A stretch of 64,000 nucleotides of DNA from Myxococcota bacterium. Lineage in GTDB: Bacteria; Myxococcota_A; UBA9042; DTJE01. The notes under the pieces are model-generated. The model did no database searches and had not been told where the DNA came from. It was given only the letters and a program-made list of their open reading frames with translations. Positions 6,952-35,806 of this stretch are shown here, piece after piece. Where the stretch lies: contig JAGOKF010000001.1 in assembly GCA_017994695.1 (NCBI GenBank), positions 1-64,000 of the forward strand, given 5' to 3'. Position 1 is the first letter of the stretch, and each line of letters starts with the position of its first letter. Position numbers and translations under genes: made by a program.

Positions 6952-6954
6952 GAT

Positions 6955-14788: not shown

Positions 14789-17700
14789 ATGATGATGGCC
14801 GACAACAGCACATGGGATACCGCATCTAGAGCCGGAGCCCTCGATCGAGACAGGGTGCCCACCCTTGTCATCGGACTGGGGGGGGCCGGGGGACAGATCG
14901 TGGCACGGGTCAAGCGGCTCGTCCGGCAGGTCTACGGGGATCGCCCCCAAATCTCGCGCCTGGTGAACTACCTGGTGGTGGATGCCGACAAGTTTGAGAA
15001 CCTCGACGCCCTGACCCGAAGGGTGATTCTTCCCAGATCTCCGGAGGAGGGTGGCGAGTTCCTGTCCCTCGCGGGATTCAACCCCCGGCAGAGATACGAC
15101 GCCTATCTGGGGCTTCCGGGAAAATCCGAGGATCTCAAAGCGTGGTTCCCGGAGGAGGACCGGGAACTTCTCCCGAACCAGCGCATCGACAACGGAGCGG
15201 CCCGGTGTCGTCCGCTGGGGCGATTCCTGCTGTACTCGAGCCCCATCGAGTCGGTGCTGTCCCGAAAGATCGCTGAAGCCTTCGAGCAGAGAGACACCAA
15301 CGTCTACGTGGAGAACCGCCAGTTGCGTGTCCTTCTGTTCTGCAGCAGTTGCGGAGGGACCGGCAGCAGTTGTCTGGTGGACGTGTTGTTCATTCTGCAC
15401 CGGCTGGTGCAGAGACAGCGGCACGTCGCACCCGTTGTAGATCTCTTCGCCCTGGGACCGGAGCCCTTCGTGAAAGCCAACACGGAGGTGTCGATCGCCC
15501 TGGAGCCCTATCTTCGAGCCAACAGTTTCGCCTTCTTCCGGGAGATCGACTTCCTGCTCAAGCATCCCGACCGTTTCAACGAGATCGCGATGGATGCCTT
15601 GTCGGCGGGTCGCAGCCAGGGGGGAGTGGAATCGCTGACCGGCCTGCCCCCCGATCAAAGACCTCCTCTGGACAATATCTACGTGTTCGACGGCAGCGTC
15701 CCGGCAGGCGTGGGCGATTTCCAGGACCTGAGCGCCCTCTACGACTATGTGGCTCGTGCATCCTTCTACGCGAAGTTCGTCCCTGAAGTGCGAGCACGCC
15801 TGGACAGTCTGGCGTCGAACGTTGAGCGGTTCAAGGGACTGGACAAACAGCGCGAGAGACGGAAGAGTTTTGCCGCCCTGGGTGTGGCCGAGGTCTGCAC
15901 CGGCGACGACTTCACCCTGCGCTATCTCCAGTTGCGATCCGCTCGCGACGGCCTGCTCCGGGGCCTGGTGGGAGACAGTTATCCGGATTTCGACTCGGCC
16001 ACCCGGGAAGTATGTTCCCGCCTGCAGGCCGACATCGATGCGGCATGTACGACACTGATCGAAGAGATTCGCAGGGCTGGCGACCAGGGCCTCGAACTGC
16101 TGATGAACCACGACCAGTTCCGGGTCAACGAAAAGGTGAAGTGGGATCTGGTCCGGAAGGCAGACGAGTCTTTGCGAGGGGCAGAACGAGACCTGATGAG
16201 GTCCGTGGACGCGGCCCTGATGGCCCAGGACACGCTGCTGCACCAGAAAGGCTCGGCCGTCCGAAGCGCCTTCCAGGCCCAGTTGGACGCGCTGTGCGCG
16301 ACCCTCTGTGATGGACAGGGAGTGATCTTCCTGGAGCGAGTGCTGACCGAACTGAACAAGCGCCTGGAGCGGGACATCGAGGTCGAGGTCGGAGCCATGA
16401 ACTCTTCCCAGGAAGCAGCGGATGGAATCCTGGAGGCGCTTCCCCAGGGGAAGGGGGATATCGGCAGCCTGGTGACCCATCTGATCGACCGCAAGGATGA
16501 ACGATTGCTGTTCCAGTTCCTGGACGACCTGATCGCGTACCGCAAACATGCCGTGGCGGTCAACCTGCACCGATTGAAGGCGGAACTGCTGCGGAGACTG
16601 GCCGGAGACGTCGGGAGGGACGCAACTCCGATGGAGTACAACGAGGGGATTCGCCGCTACCAGGTCGGTGTGACGTCGGTACGCAGCCCGCTGGACAGCC
16701 GCATCGAGGAACTGGCTTCCCTGAGGCTGCACCTGACGAATCTGGCCGGGAGTTCCAGCCCTTACGAGGTCTTCCGAGAGGAGCGCCGCGTGGCCCAGAC
16801 CTCCCCCACGATGCACATCTTGACGATGGAGAACCAGGAAAGCCTCGACCGGGAGTTCGCTGCGCTCTTTCCAGAATGGGCCCATCCGAACGATCGCGAT
16901 CGCCAGAAGGCTCGGGCCGAGCGCAACAAGGAAATCCTCCGGACCATCGCAGGGGCGCTGGATCGGCCAGAGATCGGCCCCGTGGATTTGAAAGCGATGG
17001 GACAGGAGACCTGGACATACGCCATCGAAGAGTACGTGACCCGGTGCTTTCACGAGCAGAAACGGCCGTCCATCGCCGATCGAATGAGGGATTCTGGGGA
17101 GGCCGGAGAGTTCCAGAAGATGCTTTGGCGAAACAGTGAGCCTGGAGTACGGATCCAGTATGAGGCCATGGTCGACCGCGGGGACATCGATGAAATCGTC
17201 CGGTCCGTCTTCATTGGCAGCCCCGGCGCGACCCTGGATGCCTTCGCTCAGGAAGGTGGCTCCTCGGGAAACTCCTACACCTTCCCCTGCCCCGATGATC
17301 GTTGGGTCTATCTGCGGGCCCGTGCTGTTCTCCCGATTTGGGTGTTCTCATCGATCGAGGCCCAGTCGGTCTACTATCACACCCGCGAGGTTGGAAACCG
17401 CCCACACATCGACCACCGGTTCAACCGAGGCCTCCTGGAGGAATGGGACCCATCGAACCAGGGTTCGGTCCCGGATGCGACCGAGGTCTTCTTCTCGCTC
17501 TATGCTGTGAGCCTGTTGCTGGGACCAGACTGGAAGACCCTCATTCCAGAGGAGGACCATGACCGGCGGGATCAGTTGGTGAATGACTTCCGACGGGTTG
17601 CATGGTTCGATTCCATGACCTGCATGCGCCACAACCTTCCACCTCTATTCCTGTACCAGGTCTTGTCGGGTCCGCCGGAGGCGCAGGGCGTTTACGGAAT

Positions 17701-18181
17701 TCCCTGGGAACTGGCATGGAGGGAAGGAAGGGGAGTCCTCCACGTTCAGGGGAGGGCCCCTCGACCTCTACGGATCCTGCCTCTGCCCATGAGCCGGCTG
17801 CAAGACAGGCAGCAGGTGCTGGACCAGTACCGGTCCCAGCAGGGTCTGTACCGGATTCACGCCCGCTTCCTGATCGAGATCCTCCACGGCCACCCGGCAG
17901 GGCGGACGCTGTTGGAGTTTGCAGCAGAGTCCCTGGAGAGATTCTGCCTGAAGCAACTGGAGACACTTCGTGGCACTCCGCTTTACGGAATCGCGAGAAA
18001 CCTCTCTGCCGCGCTGCGCAGCACAGAACAGAGGCGCATCCTGGCAGACGAGGCCTTCTATGAAAAGGCATCGTTGGAACTTTCCAGGATCCAGAAGCGC
18101 CTTTCCAGTGATCTCGAATCCTTGTCAGGACCCGACTCGGCCCTGGAGGATTCTTCGGCGAGGAGCGCTCAGGTCTTCTGA
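14789..18181 (+). CDS. Bacterial tubulin-like protein (Tubulin_2/FtsZ-like)
   Basis: 1130 aa; three consecutive ATGs at 14789-14797 make the exact start uncertain. The first 200 residues have the FtsZ/tubulin nucleotide-binding pattern: VIGLGGAGGQI (27-37), VVDADKFEN (63-71) and the glycine signature CGGTGSS (188-194). The rest is much longer than FtsZ, largely helical and unfamiliar. It fits the Tubulin_2 family, whose members occur beside vWA proteins. An FtsZ-like family in such neighbourhoods was proposed to act in membrane remodelling (Makarova and Koonin, 2010). I expect GTP binding and perhaps filament formation; hydrolysis cannot be judged, as no clear T7 catalytic motif was identified. 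Confidence 0.85.
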   Translation: MMMADNSTWDTASRAGALDRDRVPTLVIGLGGAGGQIVARVKRLVRQVYGDRPQISRLVNYLVVDADKFENLDALTRRVILPRSPEEGGEFLSLAGFNPRQRYDAYLGLPGKSEDLKAWFPEEDRELLPNQRIDNGAARCRPLGRFLLYSSPIESVLSRKIAEAFEQRDTNVYVENRQLRVLLFCSSCGGTGSSCLVDVLFILHRLVQRQRHVAPVVDLFALGPEPFVKANTEVSIALEPYLRANSFAFFREIDFLLKHPDRFNEIAMDALSAGRSQGGVESLTGLPPDQRPPLDNIYVFDGSVPAGVGDFQDLSALYDYVARASFYAKFVPEVRARLDSLASNVERFKGLDKQRERRKSFAALGVAEVCTGDDFTLRYLQLRSARDGLLRGLVGDSYPDFDSATREVCSRLQADIDAACTTLIEEIRRAGDQGLELLMNHDQFRVNEKVKWDLVRKADESLRGAERDLMRSVDAALMAQDTLLHQKGSAVRSAFQAQLDALCATLCDGQGVIFLERVLTELNKRLERDIEVEVGAMNSSQEAADGILEALPQGKGDIGSLVTHLIDRKDERLLFQFLDDLIAYRKHAVAVNLHRLKAELLRRLAGDVGRDATPMEYNEGIRRYQVGVTSVRSPLDSRIEELASLRLHLTNLAGSSSPYEVFREERRVAQTSPTMHILTMENQESLDREFAALFPEWAHPNDRDRQKARAERNKEILRTIAGALDRPEIGPVDLKAMGQETWTYAIEEYVTRCFHEQKRPSIADRMRDSGEAGEFQKMLWRNSEPGVRIQYEAMVDRGDIDEIVRSVFIGSPGATLDAFAQEGGSSGNSYTFPCPDDRWVYLRARAVLPIWVFSSIEAQSVYYHTREVGNRPHIDHRFNRGLLEEWDPSNQGSVPDATEVFFSLYAVSLLLGPDWKTLIPEEDHDRRDQLVNDFRRVAWFDSMTCMRHNLPPLFLYQVLSGPPEAQGVYGIPWELAWREGRGVLHVQGRAPRPLRILPLPMSRLQDRQQVLDQYRSQQGLYRIHARFLIEILHGHPAGRTLLEFAAESLERFCLKQLETLRGTPLYGIARNLSAALRSTEQRRILADEAFYEKASLELSRIQKRLSSDLESLSGPDSALEDSSARSAQVF

Positions 18182-18202
18182 ACCTGAGGGGTGGGGAGAA
18201 AC

Positions 18203-20788
18203 GTGAGCCTGAGGCCCAGTTATATCGTTTGGATGCGACCCCGTGGAGAGGGGGAAGCGATTGCGTGGCTCCCTCCTCCCGAGGTTGTTCTGCGCCGCTG
18301 GGCGAGGCAGGCGGACCCGACGGCTCCCTGGGTGCGCTTCGTCGTGCCAACCGAGGAGACCAAGGCCCGCCTGGGAAAAGACCTCCTGGCCTTGCTCCAG
18401 GATGCCCCTGCAACTCCCCGGAGGGAGGTTGGCGTTGCATGCCTGCTGGTCTTCGACGGAATCGAGGCCGGTCCGGGCTTCCTGGAGCGGTGCACACAGC
18501 AGGCGCAACAGTGGCTGGCCGCACTTCAGGACGTGTCCGCACGGGCAGGCACCGGAGTCTTTCAGAACCTCACCGTGGACTTGTGGATGCGCCTGCCGCT
18601 CCTCTCTGGAGCCCTGCCGAATCGCGGTCTGCAGGAACAGTGGCTGAGAGAGATGCGACAGGCGCTGATGGTGATACCTGGCAGCCTGGCCTCGGTTCGG
18701 CGGATCTGGTGGACGGCCGCGTCGAACGTCGATCCGGAAGGGCACCCGGAGGGACGGAACCTTGCCAGGGTCGAGGACTACGATGCGGTGCTGGCGGAGG
18801 GGATTGTGCTCTGGCTCCAGGCAGACCTGGAGCCGGAACTCGCCGTGGGACAGGCTCCGGTTGGTCCATCGAGCACGCCCCATGCCAGCCTCGGCTGCGC
18901 GCGGCTGGTCTTCGAGTCTCGGCGCCTCCGGGAGGAACGAAGTCAGCGATTTGCCCGGGAGTTCCTCCCGGGCGTGGCGGACGCTCACTCCGGAATGCGA
19001 AGAATCCCCGCCACCGATTCCGAGCGCTTTGTCTCGGAAGATCTCCCTCTGGCGGAGGGAATGCGGGGCCTGAAGGTCGAGACCACCCTGAACCTCCTTC
19101 GTCGGCCGAGCCTGCTCAACGAAGCCTTCCCGGGCTCGGTCCAACTTCAGGACCTGAAAGGGTTGATCCGAAAAGTGCGGCCTCCCGTGGAGGCGGACCT
19201 CGAGGAGCGACCCTTCGAAACTGCAGGCAACACGGTCCCTGCCCGGGTGATGGAGCGAGCGTATCGTCTGCTGGCGGACGACCTCTTCGCGGTGGTCCGC
19301 GAGGTCCGACAGGCTCGTCACCGGCTGTTTGAACAGGCCGTTCGGGAGCTTGAAGGGGAGATCGCCCGGCGTCTCGAAGACGGGTCGGTCTCCTACCTGG
19401 CACAACTGGACCAGGCGCTGTGGGACCGGCGCGCCTGGATGGAACGGGAACGGGGACGGGTCGAAGACGTGGCCCGGGAAGCCTTCGCGGAGGAGCAGCC
19501 GGCCCCGGAAACGCCAACAGGGTGGTGGGGTCGGCTGAAAGAGCTCTTTTCCCGGCCAGAGGGGCGTTTCGGACTGGTGCCCGAGGAAGAACCGAACCCA
19601 GTGACCTATCACGACCGTCTGGTGGCTCTGTTGAAAGTCCGACCGCTACCGGAAGCATGGATCACCAGGACGTTCCTGGCGGCAATCCCGGTGGGCATGG
19701 CCCTGTCACTGGCAACCCGGTGGATTGCCCCAGAGGTCGCGAGCCTGCCGTTCCTGGGTTCGCCGCTGACGGGCATGGCGGTGGTCCTGGCGGCCTGGAC
19801 CGGCCTGTCACTGAAGCGTCTGGCGACGCTGAGACGGAAGCGGCAGCGGGCCCTGGAGGCACTGTATATCGCACTGGAACGCCACGGGCGGATCCTGATT
19901 CGCAACCATCTCATCCGCAGCCTGAAGCGCCTCTACCAGGACGTCGCCGCCACGCTGGCCCTCCCAAGAAATCCGGAGGTGTCAGCCGAGGCCCTGGCGG
20001 GGATCCGGGAATCGCTGACGGAGTGTCGTCCCTGGTCGGAGGGACTGCGCCGCGCACTGACCCTGAAGGACGATCCGGAAGCGACGGAACCCGGGTTCGT
20101 GCCCCTGGCGGAAAGGCTCCAGTCGTTGATCAACGCGGTCAAGGAATCGGCGGAACGCATCGGTGCCGACCTTCCGGGAGAAGCCTTCGTCCCGGGTCCG
20201 GTGGTCGACTCGCTGGTGAACGCCGAGGATGCGGCCTCTTTCCCGTTCCTGACGAAGGCCGCCCCCGCAGCCATCGAGCCGGCAGACCAGCCTTCCCGGG
20301 AAGAGATGCTCCGGTTGTGGATGCAATCGGGCATTGCCCGGAAGGCATGGGAAGATCTGGCCACGAACCGGAAGACTGCCGTTGATGCCCTGGCGGAAAG
20401 CACGCGGTCCTGGGCCTTCGAAACAGGTTTTCGCTACCTGGAAGATACGGACCTGGAGCGCATCGTAGCGTTTCTGGTACGGCACCGCGGGGCCACGGTG
20501 GATCGCTGGCGATCCTTCCTGGAGCGTGGAGCCTTCCCCTTCTGCCCGCTGGGGGAGAACGGGCGGCTCCTACCCCTGAGGCGGCTGCATCTGACATGGC
20601 CCGGAAGTGTTGGCGACCAGTTGGGGGTCGTCCTGCAGGCCTACCCAAAAGTGTTGCCTCCCCAGTGGGGCGGAGCGCCGTCCATCGTCGCGACTTGCCT
20701 CCAGGGGCCGGGAGGAGACGCCTCGCTGCCAGCACTGCCGCTGGATTTCCCGTCGCCGGGAAGCGAGGACAGCGGAGTGGTACTGTAG
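18203..20788 (+). CDS. Unrecognised large protein with a central transmembrane pair
   Basis: 861 aa from GTG 18203, with GGGGAG 4-5 nt upstream; an in-frame GTG at 18191 lacks a site. I do not recognise the family. Residues 1-250 are mixed alpha/beta. A helical region follows, with many Arg/Glu residues. Two hydrophobic helices lie near residues 487-540 (FLAAIPVGMALSLATRW and GMAVVLAAWTGLSL), followed by a long basic coiled-coil-like helix and a helical C-terminus. Its position directly after the tubulin-like gene suggests a membrane adaptor or regulator for the filament. It could equally be a scaffold for the kinase and phosphatase. Confidence 0.7.
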   Translation: MSLRPSYIVWMRPRGEGEAIAWLPPPEVVLRRWARQADPTAPWVRFVVPTEETKARLGKDLLALLQDAPATPRREVGVACLLVFDGIEAGPGFLERCTQQAQQWLAALQDVSARAGTGVFQNLTVDLWMRLPLLSGALPNRGLQEQWLREMRQALMVIPGSLASVRRIWWTAASNVDPEGHPEGRNLARVEDYDAVLAEGIVLWLQADLEPELAVGQAPVGPSSTPHASLGCARLVFESRRLREERSQRFAREFLPGVADAHSGMRRIPATDSERFVSEDLPLAEGMRGLKVETTLNLLRRPSLLNEAFPGSVQLQDLKGLIRKVRPPVEADLEERPFETAGNTVPARVMERAYRLLADDLFAVVREVRQARHRLFEQAVRELEGEIARRLEDGSVSYLAQLDQALWDRRAWMERERGRVEDVAREAFAEEQPAPETPTGWWGRLKELFSRPEGRFGLVPEEEPNPVTYHDRLVALLKVRPLPEAWITRTFLAAIPVGMALSLATRWIAPEVASLPFLGSPLTGMAVVLAAWTGLSLKRLATLRRKRQRALEALYIALERHGRILIRNHLIRSLKRLYQDVAATLALPRNPEVSAEALAGIRESLTECRPWSEGLRRALTLKDDPEATEPGFVPLAERLQSLINAVKESAERIGADLPGEAFVPGPVVDSLVNAEDAASFPFLTKAAPAAIEPADQPSREEMLRLWMQSGIARKAWEDLATNRKTAVDALAESTRSWAFETGFRYLEDTDLERIVAFLVRHRGATVDRWRSFLERGAFPFCPLGENGRLLPLRRLHLTWPGSVGDQLGVVLQAYPKVLPPQWGGAPSIVATCLQGPGGDASLPALPLDFPSPGSEDSGVVL

Positions 20789-20812
20789 GCAGATTGGGGG
20801 GAGCGGACGGCG

Positions 20813-22288
20813 ATGACGGATGGAAGCGAGGCGACGCGAACCGGATTCCAGCCCCCCTTGGGGACGGCCGGGTCGATCCCGAGCGCGGGTGAAGCCACAC
20901 TGGCTGAAGTCCCCGTTCCGGAAGTCCCTGGGCCCGTTCCCGGGGCAGATGCGGCCCCTTCGATCGTCCCAGGGGCCGATCCCGCCCCATCGGCAGCCGT
21001 CGGCGGGTTGCCACCGGAAACTGGCACCCCGCCCTCGGTAGAAGGCGGGGTTCCCATGCCGCCAGCAATGGTTCCTTCCCCCGAGAAATCCTCCTCTTCC
21101 CCACCCTCCGGCCCCACCGCCGTGGCGCCCGCGGCGGGGATCTTCCTGGTGTTGTTCTGCGCTCTCTGGCCGGTGCATGACGTTCTAGCGACGCGGATCG
21201 CGATCCCCGCCCTCGGAAGTCCCTGGTCGTTCCTGCTGCAGATGACTGGGCTGTTCCTGGTGATCTGGGGAGCCCTGGAACTGGTGCTTCGTCACGAGGA
21301 GGACCTGACATTCCTGGAGGGCGGCCGATTCCGCGGCTTCCTCCGCCGGGTGAACCGGACCACCGGCCAGGAGAAGCGGGGCCCGATCCTGACCGTCCTG
21401 TGCGCTATCGCCACAGTGGTGGCCATGATCCAAGGTGCCTGGAGGCTGGTGCCCCTGGGTGCGGTGCCTGCCTTCGCTCTGTTCTGGCAGGCGGCGAGAA
21501 CCCCGAAGGAGCGCTGGGCGGTTCTTCCCTTCGTTCGGAACCTGCCTGCCAGCCTCCCCAGCCTGCCTGTCCCAGGGCCCGGCGAGGAGGGGGATGTTCG
21601 GGTGGACCTGACCTGGGAGTTCCCACGGATTTCCTTGTCGGACGCTTCCGTCGTCTGCGGCGAGGGCAGGGCCAGGCTCGTGATCCGAAGCGAGGACATC
21701 ATGCGGGCGCGGGAGTCGAATCCCACCCGTGGACCCGTCGCGACACTGCTGGCCGAGGAGTCCACCCGCCACGCGATGATCCGGGAACTGGCCTGCAATG
21801 GCCCGTCGACCGAGATTCCGCGTCTGGCAGGGATTGTCGGTTCCCTGTCGGCGGCCGGGAGGTTCTTTCTGCACGAGGAACTGGCTTGCCTGCTGGGGCT
21901 CGTGCAATCCATTCCGCTGCGCTCCGACGAGGAGTCCCTGGCCCGCACGGATTACTGGCGCTATCCCGTCGAGACCCTGGCAGACCGTGCAGGGGACAGC
22001 ATCGACCGGGCCCTGCTGCTGGCCGCCCTGATGCACCATCTGTACGGCGAGCCGGCCGAACCGGCACGACGCATGACGCTGCTGTTCCTGGTGGACTGGG
22101 CAAACCGCCGGGGGGCCGTCGCCGTCGGCGGTGCCACGCTGGCACTTCCGGAAGAGAGCTTTTCCCACCCGGCCCGACCGGGTGAACGATTGTACTTCTG
22201 CGACCCCGAAGACGGGGGAAAGATCGGGGGGATCCCGACAGGAACCTCTGTGGAGTGTTTCGAGATCGTGTCGTTGTGGCCGTCCTAG
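20813..22288 (+). CDS. Membrane protein with a degenerate transglutaminase-like C-terminal domain
   Basis: 491 aa. A Pro/Ala/Gly-rich N-terminal tail of about 100 residues is followed by three hydrophobic segments (near 103-120, 140-160 and 195-225) and then a cytosolic-looking domain. In that domain RYPVETLADRAGDSIDRALLLAAL matches, over its length, the ETL...GDCxDxAxLLAALL core of bacterial transglutaminase-like peptidases, but with Ser where the catalytic Cys should be. A late YFCDPEDGG resembles the family's Asp strand, and no His is found in between. It therefore looks like an inactive relative, perhaps a binding domain. The family assignment is moderate. It belongs to the operon, with gaps of 24 and 20 bp to its neighbours. 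Confidence 0.65.
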   Translation: MTDGSEATRTGFQPPLGTAGSIPSAGEATLAEVPVPEVPGPVPGADAAPSIVPGADPAPSAAVGGLPPETGTPPSVEGGVPMPPAMVPSPEKSSSSPPSGPTAVAPAAGIFLVLFCALWPVHDVLATRIAIPALGSPWSFLLQMTGLFLVIWGALELVLRHEEDLTFLEGGRFRGFLRRVNRTTGQEKRGPILTVLCAIATVVAMIQGAWRLVPLGAVPAFALFWQAARTPKERWAVLPFVRNLPASLPSLPVPGPGEEGDVRVDLTWEFPRISLSDASVVCGEGRARLVIRSEDIMRARESNPTRGPVATLLAEESTRHAMIRELACNGPSTEIPRLAGIVGSLSAAGRFFLHEELACLLGLVQSIPLRSDEESLARTDYWRYPVETLADRAGDSIDRALLLAALMHHLYGEPAEPARRMTLLFLVDWANRRGAVAVGGATLALPEESFSHPARPGERLYFCDPEDGGKIGGIPTGTSVECFEIVSLWPS

Positions 22289-22308
22289 GACAAGTCTGGG
22301 GGATGGGA

Positions 22309-23457
22309 ATGGACCAGGGAAGCCTGTGGAACAAGGTCTACGAGCAGCGGAGTCTGGACGAGCAGCAGCGCATCGGCCAGGAGCGGACGGAGCGGGAAGG
22401 CCGGATCCTGGCCATCGACGGCTGCTACGACCACTGGCAGGAGGTCGTTCCCCACGTCCGGGCGGCGGTGAAGGATCTGGTCCAGCCTCTGAAGGATCTG
22501 AAGGATCTCCCCAGGCCCCTCGGCGACTACCACCTGGTCGCGCTGGGATGCCCGGGAGAAGAAAACGCCCCGGCTGTTCTGGACGCGCTCCTTCAGTACC
22601 TGGAAGGTGGCGGTTGCGTGCTGACCACCGATTGGTGCCTGGGAAAGGTGCTGACCCACGAGCGAGAGACAAACCGGTCCCGGGAGTGGCTTGGATCGGC
22701 CGTGGTCACCACCCCCGAGACGACGGGAAGCGCCTTCACGGTGGATTACCGGAAGACGGCGCCCGATCATCCGTTGTTGCGAGGGCTGCCTTCCCGGGGC
22801 CGCTGGATCATCACTGGCTGGTCCCACATTGTCCAGGTGATCGACCGGAACCGAGTCCGGGTTTTGCTGGAATCGGCAGAACTGGCGCGGAGTCATGGCC
22901 ACGGAACCCTGCTCTTCGAGACCCAGGTGGGCAGGGGACTGCTGGTGCACTTCATCTCCCACGCCTATGCCCAAGAGGGCGAGGAACAGGACATGACGGC
23001 CGCGATGATGCTGTTGGCGAACCTGTTCGACATCGCCACCGCCCGGGCGGCAGGATCGGCCGCGGTGACCCCTGTTGCGTCGGGCGGGCGGTGGATGCGG
23101 CTCCGAGGGCCGTCCTCTGCCCTGACGGTGACCTTGAAAGCCGATGACACGGAGGCGGATCTGCGGTTGACTCGCGACAAGGCCAGGCGTCTGCTGGCAG
23201 ATCTGGCAGACGAGGACGGCAATCCGTTCTACAAGTACATCCACCCGGACGTACCTCTGGCCGAATTCCGACATGCTCCGGGAGAGGGATGGTCGGTCCG
23301 GGTTCCCGAAGGCAGCGCCAATGGGCTGTTGCTGGACGGGGACCGGGTCGGTACGGGCTGGACCGCCCTGAGGTCGGGGCAGCGGCTGGTCCTGTTCGGC
23401 ACCAGGCGGGGCCGTGCCGTGGAGGACCTGTCCCTTGGGGTGGAGATTCCGGAATGA
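22309..23457 (+). CDS. Glutamine-amidotransferase-fold (ThuA-like) protein with a C-terminal FHA-like module
   Basis: 382 aa from ATG 22309, with GGGGG upstream; an in-frame ATG at 22303 is too close to it. The first 250 residues have a class I glutamine-amidotransferase-like Rossmann pattern: YHLVALGCPGEE, then LQYLEGGGCVLTTDW, HPLLRGL and a late GRGLLVHFISHAY. This resembles ThuA-like or transmembrane GATase1-like proteins that lack amidotransferase activity. Residues 265-382 are a module shared with three other proteins of this operon (DEDGNPFYKY, then NGLLLDG, then GRAVEDLSL). Its stop overlaps the phosphatase start as ATGA, so the two are probably translated together. Confidence 0.7.
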   Translation: MDQGSLWNKVYEQRSLDEQQRIGQERTEREGRILAIDGCYDHWQEVVPHVRAAVKDLVQPLKDLKDLPRPLGDYHLVALGCPGEENAPAVLDALLQYLEGGGCVLTTDWCLGKVLTHERETNRSREWLGSAVVTTPETTGSAFTVDYRKTAPDHPLLRGLPSRGRWIITGWSHIVQVIDRNRVRVLLESAELARSHGHGTLLFETQVGRGLLVHFISHAYAQEGEEQDMTAAMMLLANLFDIATARAAGSAAVTPVASGGRWMRLRGPSSALTVTLKADDTEADLRLTRDKARRLLADLADEDGNPFYKYIHPDVPLAEFRHAPGEGWSVRVPEGSANGLLLDGDRVGTGWTALRSGQRLVLFGTRRGRAVEDLSLGVEIPE

Positions 23458-25040
23458 GCGCGTACCGGGGCGACGACAGAAGCCTCCCGCTGCCTGAACG
23501 GATCCGGCGGATCCTTGAGGAGACGGGGAGGACCGTGGATACGGAAACGGATCTCCGGGATCGCATGGCGGCGATTCTGGGCCTGCTGCAGACTCGGTCC
23601 GAATCGCCCGGAAGCGGGGATTCCCGGCAGCGGGTGCTGCCCCTGGAGCCGGGACACCTGTATGCCGTGGTCGGCGACCTCCACGGGGACTTCGCGGCCT
23701 TCGACGACATCCTGCGGTCCTTCTTCCCCAGGGACCTGACCGAGGAGGAGGCAGCCCGCCGGCATGTCCTCCTGCTGGGGGACATCCTGGACCGGGGCCG
23801 GCGGGACCTGCAGTTGCTTCATGCCCTGCTGGCCCTGAGGGAGGTGCTGGGAGAGCGCCTGATCCTGATGCGAGGCAACCATGAACACTGGGTAGCGGAC
23901 GAGGAAGGAGCCCTCCGAACCACCGCGGAGGGGGGCCAGGAATTGCTGCTGAACTACCTCCGAGGCAAGGTACCCGACGGGAATCTGCTGGCCCTGCACC
24001 GGTTCTTCGAGGGCATGCCCCACGTCCTGCTGTTGACCCACCCGGCAGGTGGGGCCTTGCTGGTCCATGCGGGAGTGCCCCCCGAGTTCCTGGTCCGGAA
24101 ATACCTCTCGAATCTTCTCGCCTCGACCGCCAGCCCCGAAGAACTGCTCCAGGCCGCCCTGCAGGTCGAGAACATCCGGAGCGCCTTCCTGTGGGGACGG
24201 GGCCCGTTGGAAGGTGTCCCGCGCCCGGATCGTCCCTACCCGTATCGGCGCTTCTACCCCGAGGACGTGGAGTCGTTCCTGGGAGTCCTGGGGGCACGGG
24301 TGCTTCTTCGGGGACACGACACCGAGAACCGGGGATACGGTGTGCAGATGGCCGGACGGTGCATCACCGTGTCGTCCTCGGGGACGGCCCTGGCAGGCCG
24401 AAACCCCGATAGCTACTTCGATCACACGGTGCAGATGCCTCGATACCTGGTGCTGGACGGGGACCGGTTCGGTCTTGGCCAGCGGGGTTCAGGAGAGTAC
24501 GAGCACCTGGACGCCGGAATCGCGGTCCGAGAGGTCTTCGGCCGGGATGTCGTCGTCCTGGTGGACGAGGAGTCGCAGGGTCCGGGGCAGGAGTCCGAGG
24601 CCATGACCCTGGCCCGCAAGATCCACCAGGCGCTCCCGTTGGCTTCCGACGTTCCCATTCACCTCTACCAGCGCCGCCTGTACTCGGTCGATGCGGCAGA
24701 GTTCCTGGTCCTGCTGGAACCACGCATCGCACGCTTCGACCGGGAACTGGATCGGTCTTTCCATGCAAGGTACACGTTCCACCTGTCCCGGGAGGAGGGG
24801 CGATTCCGATTGCGACGCTGGCGCGGACCATGGATGCCTGACAGGGAAGAGGAGGACTGCCGCGAAGAGGACAGCCGGGACGATTTCGTCCGGAAGTGTG
24901 CCGCGTTCCTGGTCCGGATCCTGGACCTGCCGGTGGCGAAGCCCGGAGTGGGTTCCTCGACCGTGGCAGAGGGTTCGGCGGCCGATCCAGAGACGGGGAT
25001 TCCGGCAACGCCTGGCGGAATGGAGGAGGAGGGACCATGA
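23454..25040 (+). CDS. PPP-family Ser/Thr protein phosphatase
   Basis: 528 aa from ATG 23454 (ATGA overlap with the previous gene). All metallophosphoesterase motifs of the PPP family are present: GDLHG (74-78), GDILDRG (109-115), RGNHE (140-144), LLVHAG and RGHD. These bind two metals for phosphoester hydrolysis. The C-terminal third is an unfamiliar extension. It sits immediately before a Ser/Thr kinase and overlaps it as ATGA, so the two probably form an opposing pair acting on partners in this operon. Related kinase-phosphatase-vWA triads, such as TerY-P, use a PP2C-type phosphatase; here it is PPP. Confidence 0.9.
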   Translation: MSAYRGDDRSLPLPERIRRILEETGRTVDTETDLRDRMAAILGLLQTRSESPGSGDSRQRVLPLEPGHLYAVVGDLHGDFAAFDDILRSFFPRDLTEEEAARRHVLLLGDILDRGRRDLQLLHALLALREVLGERLILMRGNHEHWVADEEGALRTTAEGGQELLLNYLRGKVPDGNLLALHRFFEGMPHVLLLTHPAGGALLVHAGVPPEFLVRKYLSNLLASTASPEELLQAALQVENIRSAFLWGRGPLEGVPRPDRPYPYRRFYPEDVESFLGVLGARVLLRGHDTENRGYGVQMAGRCITVSSSGTALAGRNPDSYFDHTVQMPRYLVLDGDRFGLGQRGSGEYEHLDAGIAVREVFGRDVVVLVDEESQGPGQESEAMTLARKIHQALPLASDVPIHLYQRRLYSVDAAEFLVLLEPRIARFDRELDRSFHARYTFHLSREEGRFRLRRWRGPWMPDREEEDCREEDSRDDFVRKCAAFLVRILDLPVAKPGVGSSTVAEGSAADPETGIPATPGGMEEEGP

Positions 25041-26482
25041 GCATCGGGAGGATCCACGGCTATGATCTGGAACAGGTCCTGAAGGCCGACATGAGCCTGG
25101 TGTTTCGTGCCTCGAAAGGAGGGGAACCTCGGTTCCTGAAGGTCTATCGCCTGAGAAAAGAGGACCCCGTCAACGCCCGGCGAATGCATGAGGCGCAGGA
25201 GGCCCTGCGGGGACCCCTGAGGGACCTGGGAAACATCACCGAAGACATCCTGGAGCACGGCGTCATCCCCCTCTCGGCCGCCGCGGTCGGGGACTACGGC
25301 GCGGGAGCCGATTTGCAGTTCCAACCCGAGGCCTACTACCAGGTGAAGCCTTGGCTGAAGTGCATCAACGTGGCCGACTACCTGGGCCAGGTGCGGACCC
25401 GCCTCGGGACGCTGTTCCGGGACTGGGGGAGCGAGGCGGCCCGAACCGAAACGGTCGAGCACCTGGAGAGGATGCGGACGCTCTTCGGAATGCTGGCCGC
25501 CATCCTGAAACGCTGTCATGACCACGGCATCGTCCACCAGGACCTGAAGCCCCAGCAGGTGCTTCTGGTGGAACTCCCCGTGTCCGGGGAGGGGTTCCTG
25601 GGAAAATACCGCCTGATGTTCGCGGACTTCGATGCGGCCTTCCTAGCATCGACCGGCCCGATCCACCGGGTCACAACGCTGCGGTACGAGAGTTTCGAGC
25701 ACGTCACCGGTGGTCGACTTGGGCCCTGGTCGGACGTCTTCACGATGGGACGCATGATCGGGGAGGCTCTGGGCCTGGGCGCGCCGCTGCTCTGGACCTC
25801 GGAGGAGGAAGGCTCGGGGCTGACGGAGGTCGACCAGGCCCGGTACGTGAAGCGCGCCCGCTACTGCCTCTCGTTCCAGGACTACTATGCCCGCCAGTTC
25901 GAACCGGTCCCGGTGGACCGGGAGGGGCTCAAGCGACTGGATGGCCTCCTGGCTCGCTGTTTCCAGGAGGATCCATCCTCCCGCCCCTCCGCCGGGGAAC
26001 TGGCCCGGGAATTGATGGGCCTTCGGCTGTTCCAGACTTCCCGGGAGCCCGTTCCACCACCCTCCCCGCCACCGCCACCTCCTCCCGCAACGCCCCCGAC
26101 GACGGGCAGACTTCGGGAACCTTGGTTCCGGCTTCGAGCGGACGAGCGACAGGCATACACCGTGAAGGCGGGCCAAACCATTCTGGATCGCCGGTCCGCC
26201 AAGGCCCAGTTCCCGGACTTGGCGGACGATGACGGGAACGAGTTCTACCGGTACCTCCCCGATGCCCCCGCCCTCGAGTTCCGCCTGGTGGAGGGCGAGG
26301 GTTGGGAGGTTCGGGTACCCCCGACCATGCCCAACGGGTTCCACCTGCGGCGCGGAGGGGCGCCAGAGATGCCGTTGACGGAGGCCTGGGTCCCCCTGGA
26401 GGTCGGGGACGAACTGGCCCTCTACTCGAGGAAACAGGGGCGGGTGGTGCCGCACCTGTCGCTGAAGGTGTCGGTTTCCTGA
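25037..26482 (+). CDS. Ser/Thr protein kinase with a C-terminal FHA-like module
   Basis: 481 aa from ATG 25037, preceded by GGAGGAGGAGGGACC. The kinase domain (about 1-340) has the ATP Lys in FLKVYR (K35), the catalytic loop HQDLKPQQ (167-174, D169 and K171) and DFD at 197-199 in place of DFG. HRD is HQD, so it is a non-RD kinase, and the loop Asn is Gln174. These changes suggest low or unusual activity, not clear inactivity. A Pro-rich linker leads to the shared FHA-like module (about 362-481: DDDGNEFYRY, NGFHLRRG, GRVVPHLSL). The partner phosphatase precedes it. Confidence 0.85.
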   Translation: MSIGRIHGYDLEQVLKADMSLVFRASKGGEPRFLKVYRLRKEDPVNARRMHEAQEALRGPLRDLGNITEDILEHGVIPLSAAAVGDYGAGADLQFQPEAYYQVKPWLKCINVADYLGQVRTRLGTLFRDWGSEAARTETVEHLERMRTLFGMLAAILKRCHDHGIVHQDLKPQQVLLVELPVSGEGFLGKYRLMFADFDAAFLASTGPIHRVTTLRYESFEHVTGGRLGPWSDVFTMGRMIGEALGLGAPLLWTSEEEGSGLTEVDQARYVKRARYCLSFQDYYARQFEPVPVDREGLKRLDGLLARCFQEDPSSRPSAGELARELMGLRLFQTSREPVPPPSPPPPPPPATPPTTGRLREPWFRLRADERQAYTVKAGQTILDRRSAKAQFPDLADDDGNEFYRYLPDAPALEFRLVEGEGWEVRVPPTMPNGFHLRRGGAPEMPLTEAWVPLEVGDELALYSRKQGRVVPHLSLKVSVS

Positions 26483-26487
26483 AAGCC

Positions 26488-26505
26488 GTCCCGCAGAGGC
26501 GGGAC
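26488..26505 (+). other. Perfect stem-loop in the kinase-vWA gap
   Basis: GTCCCGC and GCGGGAC pair perfectly around the 4-nt loop AGAG. It lies 5 nt after the kinase stop, in the only sizeable gap (57 bp) within the operon. No T-run follows, so it is not a standard terminator. It may stabilise or partly separate the upstream and downstream halves of the mRNA. Confidence 0.5.
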
Positions 26506-26539
26506 ACAATGGCGGTTCCAACACGAACAGGAGGTCGAG

Positions 26540-27250
26540 ATGCCGGATCTGCAGGTCAGCAAAATCAAGGGCGTGGCGGACATCGTCTTCTGCCTGGATG
26601 TCACGGGCTCCATGCAGCCGTGCATTGACGGGCTGAAAAGAAACGTCCACCGGCTGGTAGAGGCGCTCCAGTCCCCGATGGAGGTGCAGCCCGGAGTGGT
26701 CGCCGCCGTGAAGGACTGGCGGGCCAAGGTCTACGGGTATCGCGACATCGATGCCGATGGCCCCCTGGCCATGATCGAGGACTTCCCGATGGTGCAGACA
26801 GCCGCCGAGTTGCGGAACCAGTTGGAGGACCCGAGGATGCAGGCGGCGGGCGGTGGTGACGAACCCGAGTCGCTGCTGGACGCACTCTACCGGATCGCGA
26901 AGAACACCCCCTGGCGGGGAGAGAAGGAAGCCCACCGATTCGTTGTCGTGTTCACCGACGCGACACCGAAGCCCTCGTTGCACCCGAGCACGGTCGGGGG
27001 GGCAGGACCCACGGACCTGCCGGAGGTACTGCAGGCCCTCAACGCGGCACGGATCAAACCGGTGCTGTACGCCCTGAAAGGGCCTGAAACCGAGACCATT
27101 CAGAACCTCAGGCCCGCCTTGTTGAAAGCCTGCAAACTGTTCACCAGCCGAGAGGAGGCCCTGGCCTTCTTCTCTTCGGAAGTGCAGTTCGCGACCCTGG
27201 TGGATCGGCTGGCGGCCACGGTCACCGCCTCGGCCAGCGAGGTCCTCTGA
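26540..27250 (+). CDS. Cytosolic vWA-domain protein (TerY-like)
   Basis: 236 aa with no signal peptide and no membrane segment. It is essentially a single von Willebrand A domain: VFCLDVTGSM carries a DxTxS form of the MIDAS (D20, T22, S24), with VVVFTDATPK later. Stand-alone vWA proteins encoded next to a kinase and a phosphatase resemble TerY of the TerY-P triad, which act as metal-dependent protein-binding parts. A GGAGG site precedes the start. This is the second vWA protein of the operon; the first is membrane-bound. Confidence 0.85.
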   Translation: MPDLQVSKIKGVADIVFCLDVTGSMQPCIDGLKRNVHRLVEALQSPMEVQPGVVAAVKDWRAKVYGYRDIDADGPLAMIEDFPMVQTAAELRNQLEDPRMQAAGGGDEPESLLDALYRIAKNTPWRGEKEAHRFVVVFTDATPKPSLHPSTVGGAGPTDLPEVLQALNAARIKPVLYALKGPETETIQNLRPALLKACKLFTSREEALAFFSSEVQFATLVDRLAATVTASASEVL

Positions 27251-27261
27251 CGGAGGAAGGC

Positions 27262-27708
27262 GTGAGCCGGATCTGCCAGATCTGCACGATGCTCGTCCCG
27301 CCGGGCAGGAACACCTGCCCGACCTGCGGCGCGTCGTCGCAGAACTTCTCCGCCGCCTTCCTGGAGTTCACGGCCGGAACGGCCCTGTGCCGGGTCCGGG
27401 AGTTCCCTTTCCTGATGACCCGAGACTGGGTCTCCCGACACTTCCGGACTCTCGAGGACGGCGAAGGCAACCCGATCTATCGGTATTTCTATCCGGATCT
27501 TCCGATGGTGCGCGTGCTGCCAGGAGACTCGGGCTACCGCTTCCTTTCGGACGTTCCCGGTGACGACCAGCACAACCATGCCCGGCTGGACGGCCAGCCC
27601 CTGGATCACCGCGGCGTGATTCTTGGCCCACGGGGAGGCCAGCTGGAGATCTGGGCCCGACGCAATCGCACCGCCGTCTGCCGATTCGACATCCGCTTCA
27701 TCGCGTAG
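27262..27708 (+). CDS. Zinc-ribbon protein with an FHA-like module
   Basis: 148 aa from a GTG start at 27262. The N-terminus has two CxxC knuckles (CQIC and CPTC, spaced by about 11 residues), a one-zinc ribbon. Residues 30-148 align by eye with the module shared in this operon (GEGNPIYRYFYPD, then the strand pattern ending LEIWARRN). Here the stretch VSRHF before it also looks like the SxxH of a true FHA domain. Probably an adaptor binding a phosphorylated partner; function is otherwise unknown. Confidence 0.75.
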   Translation: MSRICQICTMLVPPGRNTCPTCGASSQNFSAAFLEFTAGTALCRVREFPFLMTRDWVSRHFRTLEDGEGNPIYRYFYPDLPMVRVLPGDSGYRFLSDVPGDDQHNHARLDGQPLDHRGVILGPRGGQLEIWARRNRTAVCRFDIRFIA

Positions 27709-27717
27709 GAGGCGGCA

Positions 27718-28845
27718 ATGGAGCCCTCCCGAGTCCGGGAACTGGCCCGTCGAATCGTCGGGGCCTGGACCGACCCGATCCTTCGAATCAAGGCCGTACA
27801 TGACTGGATCATCCTGAACACCGCCTATGACGAAACCGTTCTGGAAGGCCGCGACGCTCCCTCGGCCGTGTACCGGGCAGAGGGAGTCCTGGAGCGGCGC
27901 AAGGCCGTCTGCTCGGGGTATGCCCATGCGGTGGAACTGCTGCTGCAGGCTCTGGAAATTCCCGTTCTGTACGTGACCAATGCGAACCACGCCTGGAACA
28001 TGGTGCAGGTCAGGAACGTCTGGTATCACCTGGACGTCACCTGGGACGACCCGATTCCGGACACGCCCGGGCAGGTGCTCTACACCTACTTCCTGCTTTC
28101 CTCGGCCACGCTCGCGATGTCCCGGACCTTCCGGGAGTCCCGGCCAGCGCCGGCGGACTACCTGGCGACGGTCCGGGAATGGGACGGCCGCCCGGTGGTG
28201 CATGCGGTCCAGGAGGCCGAGGCGGCTTTCCGGAGCGTGTCGCCTTCGGTGCGTCCCGTATCGCTGCTGGTGTGGAAGACGGACCCCGAGGAGGTCGTGG
28301 ATCGGGTCCGCCGTGCCTTCGGCAGGGGGATGTTCGGACCGGTGGACCCGCGCATCCGTTGGTCGGTCTGGACATCGGGAACCCCCCTGGGAGAAGTCCG
28401 TTTCGGTGCGACCAGGGAGGAGGTCGAGCGCATCCCGGCCCCGGTCCTTCCACCCCCTGTGGGAGACGGCCTGCCAGTGGCGGGCTGGTTCCGCCTGCGG
28501 GGGCCCGGGATCCAGGATGTCCTGACCGTGCGGATGGACGCCTCCCAGGCTCCCTTTCGGCTGGATCGAACCTCGGCAATGGCCCTGGATGGAATCCGGG
28601 ACGAAGCGGGCCGACCATTCCACCGGTACTTCGAAAAGGGAGGAGATCCCTTGCTGGAGTTCAACATCGCTGGGGGCCGATGGGCCGTTCGGGCGCCGAC
28701 GGGAGCCGTGAACGGTTTCCTGCGCAACGGCTCCCCCGTGGGACCCGAATGGACTCCCATCGCAGTCGGCGACCTCCTGACTCTGGTGAGCCGACGACAG
28801 GGCCGTGCCGTGCCTTCACTGACCCTCAGAGTCAGTGATCGATAG
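27718..28845 (+). CDS. Transglutaminase-like protein with a C-terminal FHA-like module
   Basis: 375 aa. Residues 1-150 form a transglutaminase-core domain with the full catalytic triad: C65 in KAVCSGYA, H91 in NANHAWN and D106 in YHLDVTWDD. Such domains act as peptidases, amidases or crosslinking enzymes. No signal peptide is seen, so it is predicted to be cytosolic. Residues 258-375 are the shared FHA-like module (DEAGRPFHRY, VNGFLRNG, GRAVPSLTL). It is the last gene of the operon and ends 1 bp from the convergent carbamate kinase gene. Together with the upstream Cys-to-Ser membrane relative it makes an active/inactive pair. Confidence 0.85.
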   Translation: MEPSRVRELARRIVGAWTDPILRIKAVHDWIILNTAYDETVLEGRDAPSAVYRAEGVLERRKAVCSGYAHAVELLLQALEIPVLYVTNANHAWNMVQVRNVWYHLDVTWDDPIPDTPGQVLYTYFLLSSATLAMSRTFRESRPAPADYLATVREWDGRPVVHAVQEAEAAFRSVSPSVRPVSLLVWKTDPEEVVDRVRRAFGRGMFGPVDPRIRWSVWTSGTPLGEVRFGATREEVERIPAPVLPPPVGDGLPVAGWFRLRGPGIQDVLTVRMDASQAPFRLDRTSAMALDGIRDEAGRPFHRYFEKGGDPLLEFNIAGGRWAVRAPTGAVNGFLRNGSPVGPEWTPIAVGDLLTLVSRRQGRAVPSLTLRVSDR

Positions 28846-31198: not shown

Positions 31199-32350
31199 AT
31201 GAGCCACGTGATCACTCCGATGGTGGAGGTCCCGCAACTGATCGGGGAATCCGGCGCCCCGTCGCTGGACCTCTGCTTCCAGTGCGGGACGTGCAGCGGC
31301 ACCTGTCCGTGGAACCGGGTCTCCCGCTTCCGGGTCCGGGACATCCTGACCCGGGCCCAGCTGGGTCTGGAGGGATACGAAGGCGAGGACCTCTGGATGT
31401 GCGCCACCTGCAACGCCTGCGTGGACCGGTGCCCCCAGGGCGTGGAGATCGTCGAGGTGGTCCGCACGATCCGGATGCTGATCACCGAGAGCGGCGCGGC
31501 CCCGAAGACCCTCCGGGCGGTCCTCGGAAGCGTCCAGTCCAACGGCAACCCCTGGTCCGGGGAACCGGGGGCCCGGATGGCCTGGGTCGGGGAACGCCCC
31601 GCGCCGCGGTTCGACGGCAGCCAGACCCATGCCTGGATGCCCTGCTGCGCCCAGGCCTACGACCCCCGAAACGTCCGGGTGGCCCGGGACACCCTCCGGG
31701 TCCTCGAGGCCGCCGGGGTCTCCTTCGGGCTGGTCGGCGGCGGGGAGCAGTGCTGCGGCGACGCGGTGCGCAAGGTCGGGGCCGAGTCGGCGTTCCAGAA
31801 CCTGGCGGCACACAACGCGGGGCTCTTCGAGGACCTGGGGGTCCGGGACCTGCTGGTCACCTCGCCCCACTGCCTGAACACCTTCCGGAAGGAGTACCCG
31901 GCCACGGGGGGCCGCTTCCGGGCGACACACCTGGTCGAGGTGCTCCGGGACCGCATCGGGGCGGGGACCCTGGCCCTGCGCCGGGAGGTCCCCCTGAAGG
32001 CGGTCTACCACGACCCCTGCTACCTGGGGCGCCACAACGGCATCTACGACGCCCCCCGGGAGGTGCTGGACGCCGTGCCCGGCCTGAAGCGCCTGGAGTT
32101 CCACCGCTGCCGGGAGGAGGCGATGTGCTGCGGCGGCGGCGGGGGCCGCCTGTGGATGGAGACCCCGGTCGAGGAGCGCTTCGCGGTGCTGAAACTGCGG
32201 GAGGCCGCGGCGATGGGGGCCGACGCGGTGGTGACGGCCTGCCCCTACTGCATCAGCATGTTCGAGGATGCGAGGACCGCCCTGGGCCTGGAGGCGATCC
32301 AGGTGCTGGACGTGGCCGAAGTGGTGGCCCGGGCCCTTCCGGAGGAATGA
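31199..32350 (+). CDS. HdrCB-type (HdrD-like) heterodisulfide reductase subunit
   Basis: 383 aa. The N-terminal part is HdrC-like with two [4Fe-4S] motifs: C26, C29, C32, C36 and C68, C71, C74, C78. The rest is HdrB-like with two CCG domains (MPCCAQAYD with EQCCGD, and HDPCYLGRH with AMCCGGGGG), the family site of the non-cubane clusters that reduce disulfides. The fusion order HdrC-HdrB is as in HdrD. In bacteria the true substrate is often not CoM-CoB heterodisulfide and is unknown here. It is followed at once by hdrA, so it forms the oxidising end of the complex. Confidence 0.9.
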   Translation: MSHVITPMVEVPQLIGESGAPSLDLCFQCGTCSGTCPWNRVSRFRVRDILTRAQLGLEGYEGEDLWMCATCNACVDRCPQGVEIVEVVRTIRMLITESGAAPKTLRAVLGSVQSNGNPWSGEPGARMAWVGERPAPRFDGSQTHAWMPCCAQAYDPRNVRVARDTLRVLEAAGVSFGLVGGGEQCCGDAVRKVGAESAFQNLAAHNAGLFEDLGVRDLLVTSPHCLNTFRKEYPATGGRFRATHLVEVLRDRIGAGTLALRREVPLKAVYHDPCYLGRHNGIYDAPREVLDAVPGLKRLEFHRCREEAMCCGGGGGRLWMETPVEERFAVLKLREAAAMGADAVVTACPYCISMFEDARTALGLEAIQVLDVAEVVARALPEE

Positions 32351-32352
32351 CC

Positions 32353-34308
32353 ATGGCGCGCATCGGCGTGTTCGTCTGTCACTGCGGGACCAACATCGCG
32401 GGGGTGGTGGACGTGGCCCGGGTCGCCGAGGCGGCCCGGGGCTGGCCCGACGTGGTCTTCGCCACCGACTACAAGTTCATGTGCTCGGACCCGGGACAGG
32501 CCCTCGTGAAGGACACCATCGTCCGGGAGAACCTGGACCGGGTGGTGGTGGCCGCCTGCTCCCCCCGGATGCACGAGCCCACCTTCCGGAAGGCCTGCGC
32601 GATGGCCGGCCTGAACCCCTTCCTGTTCGAGATGGCGAACATCCGGGAGCACTGCTCCTGGGTCCACGAGGACAAGGAGGAGGCGACCCGGAAGGCCATC
32701 GATTTGACCCGGGCCGCCGTGGCGAAGGCCCGGTTGCTGGAGCCGCTCCAGTCCCGGACCGTGCCGGTGACCCAGAAGGTGCTGGTGGTCGGGGGAGGGG
32801 TCGCCGGGATCCAGGCGGCCCTGGACATGGCCAACGCGGGCCTCAAGGTGGTGATGGTCGAGCGTCGCCAGTCAATCGGGGGCCGGATGGCCCAGCTGGA
32901 CAAGACCTTCCCGACGCTGGACTGCAGCGCCTGCATCCTGACCCCGAAGATGGTCCAGGTGTCCCAGCACCCGAACATCACGCTGCACACCTACAGCGAG
33001 GTGGAGCAGGTCACGGGCTTCGTGGGGAACTTCACCGTGTCGATCCGCCGCAAGGCCCGCTTCGTCCGGGAGGACGTCTGCACGGCCTGCGGGGTCTGCA
33101 TCGAAAAGTGCCCGAAGAAAGTGGACAGCGAGTTCGAGGAGGGGCTGGGGAAGCGGAAGGCCATCTACCGGGACTTCCCCCAGGCGGTCCCGGGACGGCC
33201 GGTGATCGACCGGGATCACTGCACCTACTTCCAGAACGGCAAGTGCCGCATCTGCGAGAAGTTCTGCGAGCCCGGGGCCATCTTCTGGGACGACCAGGAC
33301 CAGGTGGTCGAGGAGAAGGTCGGGGCCATCGTGGTGGCGACGGGGTACGACCTGCTGGAAACGGACCGGCTGCGGCCCTGGGGCTACGGGCGCTACCCCG
33401 ACGTGGTGACCGGGATCGAGTTCGAGCGGATCAACAACGCCACCGGGCCGACGGCGGGCCGGATCGTGTGCAAGGACGGCCGGGAGCCCCGGGCGGTCGC
33501 CATCCTGCACTGCATCGGCAGCCGGGACCGGAACCACCGGCACTACTGCAGCCGGGTCTGCTGCATGTACGCCCTGAAGTTCGCGCACCTGATCCGGGAG
33601 AAGACGAAGGCCACGGTGTACAACTTCTACATCGACATGCGGGCCTTCGGCAAGGGATACGAGGAGTTCTACGACCGGCTGCTCCACGAGGGCGTGAAGT
33701 TCGTCCGGGGCAAGGCCGCCTGCGTCACCGACGAGGCGATGACCCCCGAGGAGCAGGGCAGACTGGTGGTGGTCGCCGAGGCGACGACGCTCGGGGAGGT
33801 GATCCGGGTGCCGGTGGACATGGTGATCCTGGCCTCGGCCATCACCCCCCAGCGGGACGCCCCCGAGGTGGCCCGGCGGTTCGGCATGGGGCTCAGCCCC
33901 GACCAGTTCTTCCTGGAGAAGCACCCGAAACTGGAGCCCTTCGGCACGGCCACGGACGGGGTCTTCCTGGCCGGGGCCTGCCAGAGCCCGAAGGATATCC
34001 CCGACACCGTCGCCCACGCGGCGGCGGCGGCCTCCACCGCCATGTCGCTGGTCTTCCGGGGCATCGTCGAGGTGGAGGCCCAGACCGCCGAGGTGGACGC
34101 CGAGGCGTGCAGCGGGTGCCGGATCTGCCAGGACGTCTGCCCCTACGGGGCCATTTCGTTCCTGGCGGACCGGAAGGTCGCCGAGGTGAACGGGGGCCTC
34201 TGCAAGGGGTGCGGGACCTGCGTGGCGACCTGCCCGTCGGGGGCCATCCGGGGCAAGGGCTTCACCGACGCCCAGGTGCTGAGCCAGATCGACGCGCTCT
34301 TCGCGTGA
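32353..34308 (+). CDS. hdrA: HdrA, FAD-containing electron-bifurcating subunit
   Basis: 651 aa from ATG 32353, with GGAGG at 32341; an in-frame ATG at 32347 is too close to it. It has the HdrA N-terminal domain (FVCHCGTNIAG), the FAD motif VLVVGGGVAGIQAAL (GGGVAG at 147-152), inserted ferredoxin-like Cys groups (CTACGVCIEKCP and CRICEKFC) and a C-terminal double-cluster ferredoxin (CSGCRICQDVCP and CKGCGTCVATCP). HdrA is the flavin site where electrons from H2 through MvhADG are split between ferredoxin and the Hdr catalytic unit. Confidence 0.95.
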   Translation: MARIGVFVCHCGTNIAGVVDVARVAEAARGWPDVVFATDYKFMCSDPGQALVKDTIVRENLDRVVVAACSPRMHEPTFRKACAMAGLNPFLFEMANIREHCSWVHEDKEEATRKAIDLTRAAVAKARLLEPLQSRTVPVTQKVLVVGGGVAGIQAALDMANAGLKVVMVERRQSIGGRMAQLDKTFPTLDCSACILTPKMVQVSQHPNITLHTYSEVEQVTGFVGNFTVSIRRKARFVREDVCTACGVCIEKCPKKVDSEFEEGLGKRKAIYRDFPQAVPGRPVIDRDHCTYFQNGKCRICEKFCEPGAIFWDDQDQVVEEKVGAIVVATGYDLLETDRLRPWGYGRYPDVVTGIEFERINNATGPTAGRIVCKDGREPRAVAILHCIGSRDRNHRHYCSRVCCMYALKFAHLIREKTKATVYNFYIDMRAFGKGYEEFYDRLLHEGVKFVRGKAACVTDEAMTPEEQGRLVVVAEATTLGEVIRVPVDMVILASAITPQRDAPEVARRFGMGLSPDQFFLEKHPKLEPFGTATDGVFLAGACQSPKDIPDTVAHAAAAASTAMSLVFRGIVEVEAQTAEVDAEACSGCRICQDVCPYGAISFLADRKVAEVNGGLCKGCGTCVATCPSGAIRGKGFTDAQVLSQIDALFA

Positions 34309-34321
34309 AGGAGGTAGGGGG

Positions 34322-34780: not shown

Positions 34781-34784
34781 GGAC

Positions 34785-35768: not shown

Positions 35769-35806
35769 GGAACGGACGCGGGCCGGGAGGGCCCGGGGAG
35801 GATGCC

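Follow-up and report, generated by a model that had tools for sequence, protein, structure and literature searches.

A C-terminal module with a predicted FHA fold, and a putative docking role, common to four proteins of a tubulin-centred operon in a Myxococcota bacterium

The DNA analysed here, referred to as the window, is a stretch of 64,000 nucleotides from a Myxococcota bacterium (assembly GCA_017994695.1, contig JAGOKF010000001.1, positions 1 to 64,000 of the forward strand). Within it lies a compact series of ten genes on the + strand (13186-28845), centred on a tubulin-like GTPase, and four of the encoded proteins end in a common module of about 120 residues. These are a GATase-like protein (22309-23457; module at about 23092-23454, located by BLASTP and profile), a protein kinase with a Pro-rich linker (25037-26482; PF00069, 8.9e-14; module at about 26123-26479), a short protein with a zinc ribbon (CQIC...CPTC) predicted from sequence and model (27262-27708; module at about 27349-27705) and a transglutaminase (27718-28845; PF01841, 1.3e-11; module at about 28483-28842). 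The transglutaminase has its Cys/His/Asp intact, and the kinase retains Lys, Asp and DFD with the motif HQDLKPQQ, in which Gln takes the usual Asn position. Between the GATase-like gene and the kinase gene lies that of a PPP-type (calcineurin-like) phosphatase (23454-25040; PF00149, 5.5e-12), which has the intact motifs GDLHG, GDILDRG and GNHE and carries no module. The three genes overlap by ATGA at both of their junctions (23454-23457 and 25037-25040), which favours a single transcript.

The first gene of the series encodes a membrane vWA protein (13186-14781; PF13519, 1.7e-9) with a signal-like N-terminus, the MIDAS motif DMSGS, a transmembrane segment at about residues 406-434 and, as detected with hhalign, a degenerate FHA-like domain of about 102 residues at its C-terminus (about 14473-14778). 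It is followed by the tubulin-like GTPase of 1130 residues (14789-18181; Tubulin_2, PF13809, 8.2e-30) and by a protein of 865 residues with a transmembrane-like segment, for which no Pfam family was matched (18191-20788). The next protein, of 491 residues (20813-22288), combines three transmembrane-like segments with a transglutaminase-like C-terminal segment in which Ser replaces the catalytic Cys (RAGDS); its relative (phmmer, 3.2e-6) is a Peptidase_C93 protein, apparently active, of another tubulin locus of the phylum (L031:2399-3202). A stand-alone vWA protein with the MIDAS motif DVTGS (26540-27250; PF25106, 1.6e-8, also PF00092) is encoded between the kinase and the zinc-ribbon protein.

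A profile built from the four module copies matched at 23080-23448, 26111-26476, 27346-27702 and 28480-28839 with E-values of 1e-55 to 8e-47, which confirm only the positions since the profile was built from the copies themselves. Homology was assessed by pairwise comparison. With BLASTP the GATase and transglutaminase copies were found to be 42% identical over 118 residues (5e-19), the GATase and kinase copies 41% over 126 residues (9e-18) and the kinase and transglutaminase copies 44% over 124 residues (1e-15); in the alignment of the copies the kinase copy showed 45-46% identity to the other two. Z-scores from 500 shuffles were 28-34 among these three copies, which are clear paralogues, similar along their entire length. 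The zinc-ribbon copy matched the GATase copy over 45 residues only (40% identity, 4e-6) and barely matched the others, with shuffle Z-scores of 12.4 against the GATase copy, 5.8 against the kinase copy and only 1.9 against the transglutaminase copy. It is a divergent fourth member, counted as such on the basis of its match to the GATase copy and of the same predicted topology. The original prediction that four proteins of one operon end in a common module was thus borne out, with all copies in the expected places. The motifs described with it hold in three copies, but the zinc-ribbon copy deviates in the first strand (FLEF), in the NG turn (HNH) and in the last strand.

The original prediction had also proposed an FHA fold. 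The kinase copy and the zinc-ribbon protein were modelled with AlphaFold2 using an alignment of the four copies, giving a pLDDT of 79.4 and a pTM of 0.73 for the former and 87.1 and 0.79 for the latter. The order of elements is equal in both models, namely three strands, a helix, a short helix, beta5-beta6-beta7 and two final strands. With Foldseek the first 24 rows for the kinase copy against the PDB were all FHA domains (best E-value 1.2e-3, probability 1.00), these E-values being modest in themselves. With VIA-align the 50 best rows were FHA domains for both models; the kinase copy reached a Z of 11.5, with 2.1 Å over 98 residues to the FHA domain of APLF, and the zinc-ribbon copy a Z of 9.2. 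Nothing of note was matched in a viral structure library. The shared topology of the two models and the ranking of solved FHA domains as best structural matches support an FHA fold for the module as predicted, although the sandwich is not fully canonical, the beta4 strand of the kinase model having shrunk to a single bridge residue.

For the ligand site, the four copies were aligned with MAFFT to 14 other FHA or FHA-like sequences of the phylum, comprising 11 clear FHA domains and three degenerate ones (two from the kinase L031:3223-4695 and the tail of the membrane vWA protein of the window). In both the L-INS-i and the G-INS-i alignments the FHA Arg is paired with the Arg that ends beta3 in the module and that is invariant in all four copies. 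In the same register, which places beta5 on the strand predicted by DSSP in both models, the position of the phosphothreonine-binding Ser is occupied by Pro in all four copies and that of the phosphothreonine-binding His by Glu in three and by Arg in one, the zinc-ribbon copy being read in a gap-free register. The NG of the beta6-beta7 loop is present in three copies and is replaced by HNH in the zinc-ribbon copy. It had been suggested that the Ser and His are clear only in the zinc-ribbon copy, and the E-INS-i alignment does pair its VSRHF (residues 57-61) with VSRRHA of FHA domains. However, VSRHF sits within a helix of the model (54-60) and not before beta5, which is left unaligned in that register; the likeness is therefore a register error and due to chance.

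The stretch from the Arg to beta5 is about 12 residues longer in the module than in canonical FHA domains and forms a helix-containing insert. The best conserved block of the module, DEDGNxFYRY, lies within this insert, with 9 of 13 columns common to at least three copies (hypergeometric p 0.015). In FHA domains the peptide site is formed by the very loops where the module carries its insert. As judged from the models, the peptide site looks rebuilt, given that both the insert and the conserved block are located there.

For comparison, Tubulin_2 loci were gathered from genomes of the same phylum. One of these (G311) contains two FHA proteins and a PP2C phosphatase, a second (G075) an FHA protein, a PP2C phosphatase and three proteins of vWA or transmembrane type, and a third (L031, of G132) a PP2C-containing protein, a transglutaminase-like protease and a kinase with an FHA-like tail. 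This tail (of L031:3223-4695) consists of two C-terminal FHA-like domains, both without the phosphothreonine-binding Ser and His. The C-terminal domain of the membrane vWA protein of the window matched an FHA profile over its full length, with an hhalign score of 31.0 (p 6e-5) that was higher than those of the 400 control segments, and it carries Pro in place of the Ser and Ala in place of the His. From the two kinase domains and this vWA tail it follows that degenerate FHA domains of tubulin loci occur in at least two distant lineages.

The module sequence family itself was found only in this operon. A profile search of the 3.96 Mb genome gave no fifth copy (a weak match on contig C105 did not hold up), and no match to the family was obtained in Pfam, NCBIfam, PADLOC or PDB-sequence searches; weak PADLOC matches to the kinase reflect general kinase similarity. 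No module was found in 52 relatives or in 377 genomes of the phylum, two overlapping samples of a single phylum, the one candidate (G228) being in the wrong frame with two stops. Similarly, no relatives of the module were found in viral contigs with the module as query, in plasmids with the whole kinase and the whole GATase-like protein, or in phages with the transglutaminase module, and a scan of genome contigs with the kinase returned distant kinases only. PF00498 matched none of the operon proteins or isolated modules, and 21 FHA matches were found elsewhere in the genome. The N-terminal part of the GATase-like protein has relatives in 9 genomes of the phylum, on none of which the module was found; several of these relatives look secreted, as judged by eye.

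Downstream of the operon, the DNA from 28847 onward is 90-91% identical to that of a genome of the same genus (G001:C4). Upstream of the 28845/28847 junction, this second genome carries a different Tubulin_2 operon (1.9e-22; positions 7707-17848 of L083, that is G001:C4:567500-587400), which encodes a tubulin, a transmembrane protein and an MZB/metallopeptidase protein and is not present in the genome studied here. On its other side, that operon is flanked by sequence with 86-88% identity to contig C92 of the present genome, up to a point from which C92 diverges. Tubulin systems thus look as if they had been exchanged at one site, but the exact exchange cannot be drawn since the left border in this genome is a contig end. 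It is possible that C92 joins contig C20, and it should also be noted that this flank contig bears an accessory protein-kinase-like gene (L092:14799-16088, G000:C92). Directly upstream of the tubulin operon lies a type III-B CRISPR-Cas set on the - strand (3167-12322), with Cas10/Cmr2 and Cmr3 recognised by Pfam, and beside the CRISPR genes a reverse transcriptase fused to a TOTE-type archaeo-eukaryotic primase domain (654-3158, +). Further downstream, heterodisulfide-reductase-like and hydrogenase-like genes (about 31199-37270, +) were noted by eye from the translations only.

Taken together, the module is probably an FHA-fold domain in which the phosphothreonine pocket has been dismantled and which works as a docking tag. 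This reading is favoured by its C-terminal place, by its four unrelated partners and by the FHA fold without the phosphothreonine-binding Ser and His. The other degenerate FHA-like domains of tubulin loci, on the L031 kinase and on the membrane vWA protein of the window, also speak for it, as do the precedents of PrgH/YscD and of effector-associated domains (EADs) described below. A phospho-peptide reader and a docking module had both been put forward in the original prediction, and docking fits the results better; the reader is weakened by the replaced Ser and His and by the insert before beta5. Several results weigh against the preferred reading. At the level of sequence profiles an FHA signal is nearly absent: hhalign, with an FHA set of nine domains (eight of this genome and one of G311), returned a probability of only 16% over 29 columns, with one of 400 control segments scoring higher, and the signal is marginal and limited to the NG...GD stretch. 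The models rest on four sequences and cover the kinase and zinc-ribbon copies only, and the five AlphaFold models vary in each job (pLDDT 57-79 and 68-87). The Arg that contacts phosphate is invariant in the four copies and the NG is kept in three, and through this Arg some phosphate binding may be possible; a kinase and a phosphatase in the same operon would also suit a phospho-switch.

The last of these points belong to the strongest of the alternatives, which is nevertheless thought unlikely, namely that the module reads phosphate in a non-canonical manner, the Arg and residues of the insert binding a residue that the kinase of the operon has phosphorylated, whereby kinase and PPP phosphatase would switch the assembly. 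Both enzymes have most of their hallmark residues, and other tubulin loci of the phylum pair FHA domains bearing the Ser and His with PP2C; on the other hand, every copy has Pro for Ser and Glu or Arg for His, and an insert rich in acidic residues is a poor match for phosphate. An ordinary phosphothreonine-binding FHA domain would share the fold, the conserved Arg and the NG of three copies, and FHA domains are matched at 21 other places in this genome, but with the Ser and His missing from all copies and PF00498 unmatched this is the least probable reading of all. Scarcely more credible is the idea that the module belongs to some unrelated beta-sandwich fold and looks like FHA domains through convergence or model bias: the lack of a Pfam match, the near absence of a profile signal and the shallow alignment would agree with it, yet FHA domains fill the best rows for both models with coverage of the whole domain, and the Arg and NG align with those of FHA domains in two of the three MAFFT modes. 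It is also rather improbable that each module regulates its own enzyme intramolecularly with no shared tag; in every carrier the module follows a catalytic or zinc-ribbon part, with a Pro-rich linker in between in the kinase, but it is common to four unrelated partners, one of them a short non-catalytic zinc ribbon, and the phosphatase encoded between module carriers lacks it.

If the module is a docking tag, we infer a scheme in which the four soluble proteins would be recruited through their C-termini, independently of phosphate, to one place in a membrane system centred on the tubulin. Their partner could be a single receptor surface, offered by the tubulin-like polymer or by the membrane vWA protein at its cytosolic end; alternatively, the modules could bind each other. 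Phosphorylation of the assembly might then be controlled by the kinase and the PPP phosphatase, and proteins brought near might be substrates of the transglutaminase. A broader suggestion, to which we give somewhat less than an even chance, is that phosphate-blind FHA domains serve as general coupling adaptors of bacterial tubulin-centred conflict systems, with the domain here multiplied onto four proteins and its ligand surface supplied by the DEDGNxFYRY insert. If this were true, a phospho-reader fold would have become a phospho-independent assembly tag multiplied across one operon, and the wiring of tubulin-type bacterial systems, which are poorly understood, could be tested directly, as the tag would define the members and one receptor would bind all four. 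The set of kinase, PPP phosphatase and transglutaminase would be a candidate for a defence function, and its locus looks as if related species could exchange it.

Several known systems show a partial resemblance to this operon. Among the GAP1-N2 GTPase-centric systems, a tubulin theme has been reported from actinobacteria and firmicutes (PMC7159879) that likewise combines a tubulin with a long C-terminal extension and a membrane vWA protein ending in a beta-rich domain; a sister theme contains kinase, phosphatase and vWA. No DO-GTPase, GAP1 or FNIII protein was recognised by Pfam in the ten genes, although two of the encoded proteins (18191-20788 and 20813-22288) match no family and might conceal one. 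The TerY-P triad comprises vWA, PP2C and a kinase with a C-terminal zinc ribbon or OB-fold (PMC11090510), and is similar to the present operon in the stand-alone vWA, the phosphatase, the kinase with a small C-terminal domain and the presence of a zinc ribbon; it differs in that the phosphatase here is of PPP type (PF00149) instead of PP2C, the kinase ends in an FHA-like module and the zinc ribbon is on a separate protein. The systems of both papers were described computationally; the one exception is the antiphage activity of TerY-P-like modules, for which PMC11090510 cites Gao et al. (2020).

The module itself resembles FHA domains (PF00498; APLF, Rad53 FHA1, GarA/OdhI) in its predicted fold over the whole domain, in the Arg ending beta3 and in the NG of three copies. 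It differs from them in the replaced Ser and His, the helix-bearing insert, the reduced beta4 and the absence of a family-model match. A fold of this type with weakly conserved phosphothreonine-binding residues is also known from the cytoplasmic domain of PrgH/MxiG/YscD of type III secretion (Yop-YscD_cpl, PF16697). In the FHA-like domains of PrgH/YscD these residues are poorly conserved and dispensable, and deletion of the domain blocks assembly (PMC3635987). There is no sequence link to the modules, and that domain occurs once, in a ring protein of the membrane, as opposed to four times on different enzymes and adaptors. The EADs of NTP-dependent conflict systems, which couple operon proteins and are described as alpha-helical or alpha+beta (PMC7159879), are alike in being small non-enzymatic domains duplicated on adjacent signalling and enzymatic proteins of an operon, with copies closest to each other. 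A copy on the core component would be expected of an EAD, but here the tubulin is without the module, and the degenerate FHA-like domain of the membrane vWA protein is a different one. The module further differs in its predicted fold, a beta-sandwich of FHA type that bears a helical insert; by analogy it may, tentatively, be viewed as an all-beta counterpart of the EAD/Death-domain principle.

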